A stretch of 10,299 bases of DNA from Pseudomonadota bacterium (lineage in GTDB: Bacteria > Myxococcota > Bradymonadia > UBA4248): contig JAGACY010000025.1 of assembly GCA_017613855.1 (NCBI GenBank), positions 1-10,299 of the forward strand, in the 5' to 3' direction. Below are positions 4,882 through 7,192 of this stretch, piece by piece. Each line of letters begins with the position of its first letter. Position 1 is the stretch's first letter. A program made the position numbers and the translations under genes. The notes beneath the pieces were generated by a model. That model made no database searches. It saw nothing but the letters and a program-made list of their open reading frames with translations, and was not told the DNA's origin.

Positions 4882-4967
4882 TCACTTCTTTTATATTTAA
4901 ATCATACCAATGTGCAGCCTTTATTAAAGTTCTGTTCACTGAGTAGGATTTGGCATTATGTATCTTT

Positions 4968-4993
4968 AATGCATAATGATGAATGCATAATGA
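4968..4993. repeat. Two direct copies of AATGCATAATGA
   Basis: Copies at 4968-4979 and 4982-4993 are identical and two bases apart. The inverse form GCATTATG occurs at 4953-4960 and again at 5061-5068. This could be a binding-site cluster or remains of a short-unit repeat like the one flanking the S23 element at 6672. Function unknown. Confidence 0.5.
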
Positions 4994-5134
4994 AATGTCG
5001 TTCTCAGAACATTTGAATGATACCTTTGGTTTTGCAAAATCATTCAGCATTTTGAATTATGCATTATGAATTCACTCTCCCCCCCTTGGGGAATCTGCAG
5101 AGCAACAGACGGCTGAATGTTACCCAAAAAGCGT

Positions 5135-5353: not shown

Positions 5354-6658
5354 ATGCGCGTCGTCGATTTGATTGAAATGAAACGTGATGGCAAGGAAAT
5401 CCCTGCACAGGACATCAAGGCATTTGTGGATGCCGTGGTACGCAAAGAAGTTCCCGAGTATCAGACGGCCGCATTTTTGATGGCCGTCTTTTTCAGAGGG
5501 ATGCAGCCCGAGGAACTCGTCGCCTATACCCAGGCGATGCTCTACAGTGGCGACACGCTTTCGCTCAAATCACTCGCCAATCAATATAAAGTCGACAAAC
5601 ACTCGACCGGCGGTGTCGGCGATAAAGTCTCCCTGACACTCGCTCCGATGGTTGCGGCATGCGGGCCTGTCATTCCGATGATTTCGGGACGCGGCCTCGG
5701 TCACACCGGCGGCACACTTGACAAACTCGAATCGGTACCCGGTTTCCGCGTTGACCTGAGTGAAGCCGAAATCGAAGCAGGCATTGCCAAATCGGGCTAT
5801 GTCATTACTGGCCAGACCGGGTCGCTCGTTCCCGCCGATAAAATCTTCTATGCACTGCGCGACGTGACCGGTACCGTGCCTTCGATCGAGCTGATTGCCG
5901 CATCTATTATGAGCAAGAAACTGTCGGTCGGCCTGAACGGCCTCGTGCTCGACGTCAAAGTCGGATCCGGTGCCTTCATGAAGACCCAGGATCGCGCCAC
6001 AAAACTGGCCGACACGATGATTAGCATCGGCCGCGCCATGAACTGCAACGTCCGCGCCTGCATCACGAGCATGGATCAGCCGCTCGGCGTCGCCGTCGGC
6101 AATGCCAACGAATTCATCGAAGCCGTCGAAATGCTCAAAGGCAACGCCCCCGCCGACTACGCGCACCTTTGCTATACCCTTGGCACCGAAATGCTCGCCA
6201 TGGCCAAAGGCATTTCGAATGACGATGCCCGCGACGAACTCGAAAAAGCCATCACCTCGGGCCGCGCACTCGAGCAAATGCGCAAGAGCATTGCCGCACA
6301 AGGCGGTGACGCCCGCGCCGTCGACGATTACAGCATTCTCGAAATCGCTAAAGACACCGTCCAGGTCAAGGCCCCATGCGACGGCTACGTCTCGGCATTC
6401 AATTGCGAACAAGTCGGCAAAGCCGGCTGCATCCTCGGCGCAGGCCGCGAAGTTGCCGGTGCACCCGTCGATCACAGCGTCGGCCTCGAAGTGCTGCACA
6501 AAATCGGCGCCAAAGTCAAAGCCGGCGACGCTCTCTTTACCGTCTACTACAAGGACGAAAAGAAATGCGAGACCGCCTGCAAGATGCTGCTCGATGCCAT
6601 CACACTGAGCAATGACGCGCCAAAACCGAATGAGCTGATTAGGGATATTCGGAGATAG
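5354..6658 (+). CDS. deoA: Thymidine/pyrimidine-nucleoside phosphorylase
   Basis: This enzyme splits thymidine or other pyrimidine nucleosides with phosphate to give the base and (deoxy)ribose 1-phosphate, in cytoplasmic nucleoside salvage. The 434 residues equal the usual family length. An N-terminal helical part (1-65) is followed by the phosphate loop KHSTGGVGDK (82-91), then the family signature SGRGLGHTGGTLDKLE (111-126). The positions matching the known active-site residues are all present: His83, Arg169 (ALRD), Ser184 and Lys188 (SIMSKK). A central alpha/beta domain leads to the C-terminal PYNP_C-type domain (about 340-420). The ATG follows AAAGGAG. It stands alone, with no other nucleoside-catabolism gene in the window. 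The region around the signature is very close to enterobacterial DeoA, but substrate choice (thymidine only, or also uridine, as in Pdp) cannot be settled by eye. Confidence 0.97.
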   Translation: MRVVDLIEMKRDGKEIPAQDIKAFVDAVVRKEVPEYQTAAFLMAVFFRGMQPEELVAYTQAMLYSGDTLSLKSLANQYKVDKHSTGGVGDKVSLTLAPMVAACGPVIPMISGRGLGHTGGTLDKLESVPGFRVDLSEAEIEAGIAKSGYVITGQTGSLVPADKIFYALRDVTGTVPSIELIAASIMSKKLSVGLNGLVLDVKVGSGAFMKTQDRATKLADTMISIGRAMNCNVRACITSMDQPLGVAVGNANEFIEAVEMLKGNAPADYAHLCYTLGTEMLAMAKGISNDDARDELEKAITSGRALEQMRKSIAAQGGDARAVDDYSILEIAKDTVQVKAPCDGYVSAFNCEQVGKAGCILGAGREVAGAPVDHSVGLEVLHKIGAKVKAGDALFTVYYKDEKKCETACKMLLDAITLSNDAPKPNELIRDIRR

Positions 6659-6671
6659 TTTCCGTTATTCT

Positions 6672-6694
6672 CTATTCACTATTCACTATTCACT
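6672..6694. repeat. Left 7-bp repeat array (CTATTCA x3)
   Basis: Exact tandem copies lie at 6672-6678, 6679-6685 and 6686-6692, followed by CT. The array ends four bases before the ATG of the enclosed gene and takes the place where a ribosome site would be expected. No Shine-Dalgarno sequence is present. Confidence 0.85.
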
Positions 6695-6698
6695 GCCT

Positions 6699-7064
6699 AT
6701 GAAAGACTCAATCCTGCGTGAAAAGAGCAAGAAATTCGCGATAGCTGTTATCCGAATGTACAATTATCTGCGCGAACAAAAGAGGGCTGCTGTGATTTCC
6801 AAGCAGGTGCTTCGTTCAGGTACGAGTATAGGGGCAAATGTCTGTGAATCTTATTATGCTCAGAGTTCTGCGGACTTTATTAACAAAATGAGCATTGCGC
6901 TCAAAGAAGCGGCAGAAACGGATTACTGACTGGAGCTGCTTTTGAGCACAGATGGTATCAGCGAACAGCAGTATGAACTCATGCACGAATCGTGCATCGA
7001 AATTATTAAAATTCTTACAGCCAGTATTAATACCGCCAAGAAAAATGCAGATAATTGTCAGTGA
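6699..7064 (+). pseudogene. Four-helix-bundle (S23/IVP family) protein gene with in-frame TGA
   Basis: Codons 1-76 read as a typical S23-family protein: an N-terminal helix (KSKKFAIAVIRMYNYL-like), the family hallmark LRSGTSIGAN (38-47), then YAQS and ADFINKMSIALKEA. Codon 77 is TGA. The same frame then continues for 44 sense codons (beginning LELLLSTDGI) to a second TGA at 7062. Joined, the 121 residues match the usual family length, and the family normally has Trp at the site of the first TGA (ETxYWLELL), so one base change from TGG explains it. The family is found as ORFs in 23S rRNA intervening sequences and is related in fold to Avd of diversity-generating retroelements; its biochemical role is not established. 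The ATG lacks a ribosome site. Most likely a recent pseudogene, possibly a sequencing error; readthrough is less likely. Confidence 0.85.
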
Positions 7065-7089
7065 ATACGTAATAGTGAATAGTGAATAG
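7062..7089. repeat. Right 7-bp repeat array (TGAATAG-type x4)
   Basis: The period-7 units are TGAATAC (7062), GTAATAG (7069), TGAATAG (7076) and TGAATAG (7083). It is inverted relative to the left array. The first unit supplies the final TGA stop of the S23 reading frame. Confidence 0.8.
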
Positions 7090-7097
7090 GTTTAAGG

Positions 7098-7162
7098 AGC
7101 CCGCCTATGCGCGCTGCGCATACGGCCTGGGCGCTCGGGCTATCGGCTTTGCCGATACGCCC
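7098..7162. repeat. Multi-stem GC-rich intergenic element
   Basis: TATGCGC-GCT-GCGCATA (7106-7122) is a perfect hairpin enclosed by AGCCCG (7098-7103) and CGGGCT (7136-7141). A second perfect hairpin, TATCGGC-TTT-GCCGATA (7141-7157), is enclosed by GGGCG (7129-7133) and CGCCC (7158-7162). The two outer stems overlap, so they are alternatives. This twin-hairpin form suggests a dispersed REP/BIME-like element. It sits immediately before the ribosome site of the small lipoprotein and may be part of its leader. Confidence 0.6.
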
Positions 7163-7192
7163 TCGCATTTTATTAAGTTCTTTGGAGGCCCT

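Follow-up and report, generated by a model that had tools for sequence, protein, structure and literature searches.

For decades S23 genes have been familiar as parts of rRNA intervening sequences (IVS); in many bacteria they are now annotated, with no function assigned, under the name 'four helix bundle protein'. For the 23S rRNA IVS of Coxiella burnetii, the accessible part of PMC4990558 describes tandem heptamers which precede the S23 start and vary in number between strains. The same source states that the rRNA sites of 23S IVS are former hairpin loops and that earlier authors suspected these sequences to be mobile; in that part the heptamers are not generalised and no copies outside rRNA are described. 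Insertions in the 16S and 23S rRNA of CPR bacteria carry an S23/IVP ORF like the unit presented below; the available sections of PMC11270868 place them in rRNA only and mention neither a heptamer nor an inverted repeat. According to excerpts of the respective papers, IVP genes had already been observed in cas loci (PMC3936711), and Avd of diversity-generating retroelements resembles PF05635 in sequence and structure (PMC10053308).

Heptamer arrays were described for Beggiatoaceae (TAACTGA; PMC4679880), Xanthomonas (GGGAATC) and Nostoc (GGGGA(C/T)T; both PMC4692102). In X. campestris two repeat sites of opposite orientation were reported to lie near each other in 70 cases, and as a rule the heptameric arrays were not found with mobile elements (PMC4692102). 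Like the arms of the S23 units, these arrays are tandem and mostly intergenic; as far as the accessible portions of both papers go, they are described without a cause and without a link to S23. In open-licence papers no report linking S23 genes to heptamer arrays outside rRNA was found.

The DNA analysed here, called the window, is a stretch of 10,299 nucleotides from a Pseudomonadota bacterium (GTDB lineage Myxococcota; Bradymonadia; UBA4248). The first-pass annotation had described a 19-bp perfect inverted repeat of heptamers around an S23 ORF, situated behind a nucleoside phosphorylase gene and outside rRNA. The repeat was confirmed (6672-6690/7071-7089, 19 nt, 100% complementary); a longer imperfect pair encloses these arms (6666-6700/7054-7088, 35 nt, 83% complementary). 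The setting was also correct: the ORF matches TIGR02436 and PF05635, its neighbour matches deoA models, and the window has no Rfam match of any kind, including rRNA. The features are compiled in Table 1.

Table 1 Features of the S23 unit and its upstream neighbour in the window
Feature	Position	Strand	Remarks
deoA-like pyrimidine-nucleoside/thymidine phosphorylase gene, upstream neighbour of the S23 unit	5354..6658	+	NF004490 523 bits, TIGR02644 521 bits
Left terminal array (CTATTCA)x3+CT, holds arm 6672-6690	6672..6694	+	Such arms also in S23-less UBA4248 units
S23 four-helix-bundle gene, broken: 76 codons, then same frame to TGA 7062-7064	6699..7064	+	
In-frame TGA within S23	6927..6929	+	Trp codon there in the three most similar relatives
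Right terminal array AGTGAATACGTAATAGTGAATAGTGAATAG, heptamer of the left array inverted, 7071-7089 perfect	7060..7089	+	
Whole S23 unit, ~420 bp, foldable as RNA or single-stranded DNA	6666..7089	.	RNA folding of 6660-7100

Between the arms S23 is the sole ORF of at least 60 aa, and no own transposase is encoded. The stop of its frame falls inside the right terminal array. The interrupted right-end form GTGAATACGTAATAGTGAATA was also found in L369 and L382, and on the complementary arm in L366, L367 and L379. As a control for the arms, exact inverted repeats of at least 18 bp occurred at 6 of 400 random position pairs in relatives, whose genomes are themselves rich in such arrays. Folding as RNA, which the first-pass annotation had proposed, gave a stable structure with paired arms for 6660-7100 (MFE -129 kcal/mol, z -3.99 against 100 shuffles).

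Like the C. burnetii IVS of ~430 nt, the unit consists of an S23 ORF in a long terminal stem, with no other gene; unlike this IVS, which lies in rRNA helix 45, it is located behind deoA (PMC4990558, accessible part). The likeness to 23S IVS seen at first reading is supported, since the published IVS has heptamers before the S23 ORF. The S23 ORF (broken by a TGA) and the complementary ends of an IVS are present, and the location in a 23S rRNA helix is not. The unit is not an IVS, because it lies in the wrong place, and not an IS, because it has no transposase; it was filed under the IVS/S23 kind. Unlike a diversity-generating retroelement, the window has no reverse transcriptase (RT) among the 8 ORF translations scanned.

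The first-pass annotation had recognised the ORF as S23, but had overlooked the in-frame TGA. The scores increase when this codon is read through, from 70 bits (first 76 aa) to 101 bits with TIGR02436 and from 61 to 88 bits with PF05635. Trp stands at this position in L023, L026 and L027, the three S23 copies of relatives most similar to that of the window; L022 and L025, which belong to another S23 branch, are without it. With a TGA after 76 codons and Trp in the closest copies, the window copy lacks a full protein unless readthrough occurs. The closest solved structure is PDB 2rld (E=1.4e-34), and with 2gsc the sequence match is weak. Taken alone, the copy in the window is decayed and modest; the finding is the class to which it belongs.

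Related deoA sites were compared, as the first-pass annotation had suggested. Scanning for deoA yielded 21 loci. The five nearest belong to MAGs with Myxococcales or 'Proteobacteria' in their titles, and ruminant gut samples are the source of three of these MAGs; the best relative is UBA4248 (L001) with 98% deoA identity. S23 had no match in the 3 kb behind deoA in any of the five. In L001 the right array aligns with that of the window with a changed unit (AATTGCG-like vs AATAGTG), and S23 is absent. At the corresponding site UBA4248 retains just degenerate arms, hence there is no clean before and after for the window copy. Elsewhere, three of the five relatives have S23 (6 matches). The heptamer differs from site to site, e.g. 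GAGCTTT, AATTCGG, AATTGAT and AATGCGT. At the five sites uncut by a contig end heptamers are inverted across S23, with units that are similar and not always identical. REP-like palindromes (CGGGCTATCGGC..GCCGATACGCCC), which are common to the relatives, adjoin the unit at ~7100-7170 of the window, at ~1940-2010 of L001 and after deoA in L005. The window furthermore contains a second, S23-less inverted pair with heptamer-like arms (4967-5066, 27 nt, 78%, 46 nt apart), whose left arm matches repeats at 11450-11531 of L002.

With the window unit as query, 36 matches were found in G001 (UBA4248), 14 in G002 and 3 in G003, and none in G004 and G005; all but one lie on the arms, mostly without S23. 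The 36 matches in G001 represent 26 places, 20 of which were fetched. S23-less inverted units with arms of the window heptamer were present at 12 of these 20, which is not an unbiased rate, and 11 of them measure 129-137 bp. Their ends align partly to the window (left 27-50 of 76, right 28-52 of 68), which makes them relatives of the window unit, apparently miniature ones, and not recent copies. The first-pass annotation had counted an ordinary dispersed repeat unrelated to S23 as evidence against its reading, and this applies by half. The heptamer is indeed dispersed, mostly without S23, but the inverted units at the 12 places connect it with the S23 unit.

The flanks of S23 genes were surveyed in a larger sample. 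S23 matches were found in 38 of 140 Myxococcota genomes, in 2 of 16 assorted genomes, and in 26 plasmid and 2 phage records, of which 16 and 2 were fetched. Among 112 S23 places, 101 had at least 150 bp on either side, 66 of them with at least 45 bits and 35 weaker. The flank test counted exact inverted repeats of at least 12 bp between the two 250-bp flanks. Such repeats were detected in 39 of the 66 loci with at least 45 bits, compared to 1/197 for swapped flanks, 2/181 for the same loci shifted by 700 bp and 8/400 for random positions in relatives. Direct repeats of at least 12 bp were present in 14/66, and just 6/35 of the weaker S23-like matches had the inverted repeat.

The test was repeated on new genomes, where phylum labels, here and in the first sample, follow the centre genomes UBA4248, Prosthecobacter and Spirochaetaceae. 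For Verrucomicrobiota, with S23 in 70 of 115 genomes, inverted repeats were found at 14/30 loci vs 0/145 swapped and 0/60 shifted. The values for Spirochaetota were 7/23 vs 2/113 and 1/43; here direct repeats (8/23) were as common as inverted ones. Pooled over three phyla and plasmids (at least 45 bits), 58 of 111 S23 loci have the inverted repeat and 53 are without: Myxococcota 25/45, Verrucomicrobiota 14/30, Spirochaetota 5/15, plasmids and phages 11/18, assorted genomes 2/2, and the window. In these sequences, S23 genes as a class are flanked by inverted arrays more often than any control. No rRNA was found in the 60 fetched S23 loci scanned, and two single-sequence queries found no S23 in viral contigs.

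The arm period in the 58 loci was 7 in 27, 6 in 3 and 8 in 1, with none clear by the measure used in 27; 6-mer units are prominent in some Myxococcota, and an 8-mer unit in L030. As far as the sequences tell, the end unit of these S23 loci measures mostly 7 bp, with 6 or 8 in some lineages. Where a 7-mer array was present in both flanks, the unit was identical in inverted orientation at 20/32 loci and at most one base off at 25/32; between different loci it was identical in 15 of 992 pairs. The distance between units falls as S23 identity rises (Mantel r -0.19, p 0.0005, same orientation), weakly so in reversed orientation (r -0.06, p 0.02). In the Nostoc loci L103, L109 and L108, with 87-94% protein identity, the main units are GTCGGAG, GTCGGAA and GTCGCAA, each on both sides. 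Matched units within a locus, together with their divergence along the S23 lineage, indicate that the arrays are inherited with S23 and that both arms change together. Stop codons were rejected as a cause of the period of 7 (stop triplet in 48 of 100 units vs 47.6 expected after shuffling).

Array density was compared between 20 genomes with at least 3 S23 matches and 20 without, with up to two stretches each, some of them short. There were 18 period-7 arrays in 609 kb of the S23-rich and 4 in 663 kb of the S23-negative genomes, ~5x per base (per-genome p 0.03). The 6-mer arrays numbered 5 vs 1, and other periods were near level. Solo arrays without S23 are numerous, some inside annotated genes. 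On pAfl69 (L180, 29876-33647) the heptamer of the S23 element forms solo arrays, several of them within annotated coding sequences.

Sites with and without S23 could be compared in Nostoc. Plasmid A of Nostoc C052 carries S23 with (AATTCGT) arrays, whereas the paralogous region of plasmid D has neither S23 nor array; the right flanks are 99.8% and the left flanks 90% identical. A stretch of 188 bp is kept in plasmid D and missing beside S23 in plasmid A (L104 vs L173), and five more plasmid regions (L174-L178) also retain it; L179 was omitted from this comparison, as just its left part aligns. In N. commune SO-36 (L109) S23 and its arrays replace 593 bp with most of xisH, compared to Nostoc C057 (L184). 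The order cas2-S23-cas1 was found in L106 and L183, and cas2 and cas1 adjoin in L181 and L182. None of the nine S23-less target stretches (L173-L178, L184, L181, L182) contains a tandem array. Nostoc sites with S23 show no apparent target-site duplication. As read from these plasmid sequences, sites with S23 also have the arrays and lack target DNA, and sites without S23 have no array. The sites were read as insertions with target loss because most compared regions are without S23; as this polarity would follow from the majority, the reverse order, with the S23 state older, is formally possible.

Plasmid S23 genes are often situated within operons, e.g. hsdS-S23-hsdR (L105), csx2-S23-cas1 (L115), DUF1156-S23-Swt1 (L114/L116) and helicase-S23-methylase (L110). 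By reading of 16 annotated plasmid loci, both neighbours lie on the S23 strand in 11, on the opposite strand in 3 and mixed in 2. The S23 of L105 (Monoglobus, 1501-1842, between hsdS and hsdR) is also broken, with 2 stops. For L105 and L108, searches for similar regions yielded no counterpart without S23 that entered the comparison.

A multicopy family was found in G048, where four S23 copies at unrelated sites have exact ends in common. A search with one copy found 40 places with 68 matches in total; as 14 of the places begin at the start of a contig, single copies may in some cases have been split in two. Of the 30 loci fetched, 21 left and 24 right ends have constant termini with differing neighbours. 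One kind of internal S23 deletion occurs in 9/30 loci, 8 of them with identical breakpoints, and 2 more loci have another deletion. Since this S23-deleted derivative multiplied, S23 is not needed in cis. A 9-bp target duplication abuts 2 of the 15 two-ended copies and is absent in 13. The hexamer array comprises 2 to 9 units. The outermost ends (GGGCGCGAT...ATCGCGCCC) lie beyond the arrays and resemble ordinary terminal inverted repeats; hence, an unrelated MITE may have captured S23. On the evidence of these sequences, there is an S23 family of many copies whose ends are constant, and derivatives with a deleted S23 have multiplied within it.

We consider it likely that the window unit represents a decayed 'S23 element', by which we mean a minimal mobile element of ~0.4-0.6 kb with S23 as its sole gene and inverted short-tandem-repeat ends. 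The suggestion of a minimal non-autonomous mobile element, made in the first-pass annotation, is well supported by the sites with and without S23, the multicopy family with constant ends and the miniature UBA4248 units. The intervening sequences of 23S rRNA probably belong to the S23 elements as well. MITEs and REP elements are small, have inverted ends and no transposase, occur in many copies and are mobilised in trans. The miniature relatives and the G048 family likewise are small, have inverted ends and no transposase, and occur as copies at unrelated sites. In contrast to MITEs and REP elements, full-length S23 elements carry a conserved gene, and their ends are tandem arrays with a unit that changes between lineages. 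As estimated from codon substitutions, this gene is under purifying selection: dN/dS was 0.03-0.45 in 20 of 27 copy pairs, and dS was saturated in the other 7. The low values indicate that the protein is of value either to the element or to its host.

For the S23 element the following mechanism is proposed. The two arrays would act as one long hairpin, of single-stranded DNA during movement and of RNA when the host operon is transcribed. RNase III, which cuts out 23S rRNA intervening sequences, could by analogy excise the S23 message from the RNA of a host operon. Out-of-register slippage of the repeats and template switching across the hairpin may renew both arms jointly, hence units would differ between copies and yet match within one. 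The spread of S23-deleted copies suggests that the movement function can act in trans. The S23 protein, a pentameric helical bundle similar to Avd, is then the likely RNA- or DNA-binding partner rather than the catalyst.

Three other explanations were weighed against the S23 element. MITE-like heptamer hairpins could spread alone and S23 could drop into their loops, as IVS replace rRNA loops. The S23-less UBA4248 units with the arms of the window unit, the inverted arms without S23 that L001 has at this deoA site and the former hairpin loops at rRNA IVS sites (PMC4990558, accessible part) are in line with such a hairpin-tropic insertion. We nevertheless hold it to be unlikely, as the nine S23-less Nostoc targets have no array at the site, and as the units diverge together with the S23 protein in orientation, which is unexpected if S23 met random hairpins. 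The related proposal of the first-pass annotation, a repeat-tropic insertion, found no support at these same targets, where it could be tested.

S23 could also be an ordinary host gene, and the arrays selected cis signals for ribosome binding or transcript processing, with no mobility involved. The strong purifying selection fits this, as do the upstream arms, in which G predominates on the sense strand of S23 (G>C in 42, C>G in 11, p 2e-5), with SD-like words in 13/58 loci vs 2/58 reversed. Such an explanation is improbable in view of the patchy presence of S23 in Myxococcota and Verrucomicrobiota, the sites with and without S23, the many copies at unrelated sites and the S23-deleted derivatives. 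Even less credible is chance or an assembly artefact, with AT-rich simple repeats that happen to lie beside S23: heptamer arrays are dispersed in these genomes and many assemblies are fragmented, but the swapped, shifted and random flank controls and the period specificity contradict it, and complete plasmids show the same pattern, as do the plasmid and phage loci of the survey.

If the S23 element is accepted, S23 mobility would explain S23 genes inside cas, restriction and other operons. Two loose ends are joined, S23 genes without a function and heptameric repeats without an origin, and a testable object is named: a one-gene mobile element whose ends differ between lineages and are matched within each copy. 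Classical elements have fixed ends, as the sequence of these ends is read by an enzyme. Thus, how the ends of S23 elements vary and yet work, perhaps by structure and not by sequence, becomes a direct experimental question. More speculatively, the scattered bacterial heptamer repeats might be ends and relics of one ancient S23-element family, in which S23 with its Avd fold would help to make or renew the 6-8-nt repeats, perhaps by copying a short template in the manner of telomerase, whose units also measure 6-8 nt, and 23S IVS would be members that landed in rRNA; we regard this possibility as rather doubtful.

Of two candidates for supplying the movement in trans, neither is universal. For a reverse transcriptase, considered by analogy to Avd, the link was weak and the enzyme is not required: RVT_1 was found in 29/70 S23-positive vs 9/45 S23-negative Verrucomicrobiota (p 0.025), 41/70 of the S23-positive genomes had no RT match, and none was found in G163 with its 16 S23 matches. 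The link to a Y1/HUH transposase was strong in Verrucomicrobiota (55/70 S23-positive vs 16/45 S23-negative) and was not repeated in Myxococcota (16/38 vs 31/102, p 0.23); a Y1 match was present in 47 genomes, and G048, which is rich in copies, is not one of them. Neither RT nor Y1 transposase consistently accompanies S23. A long-frame Y1 class, hand-picked among the matches listed, occurred in at least 26/70 vs at least 2/45 Verrucomicrobiota. Among the matches listed, Y1 was noticed near S23 at two places (G198:C20 and G192:C66); an array scan of these stretches gave one 6-mer and one 7-mer array. G232 and G202 have 15 and 34 Y1 matches, yet they are not among the 70 genomes with an S23 match at the cut-off.

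Further RNA features were seen near individual S23 genes. In two phage-labelled human gut contigs a Gut-1 RNA (RF01706, Rfam) lies just upstream of S23 (L117 1280-1350, L118 1296-1368). No literature on this RNA was found in open-licence papers. By eye, both stretches consist of small hairpins in succession, between which GTGATATT or ATGAAAT recurs as a spacer. In L235 tRNA matches lie on either side of S23, at 1326-1413 and 1907-1992.
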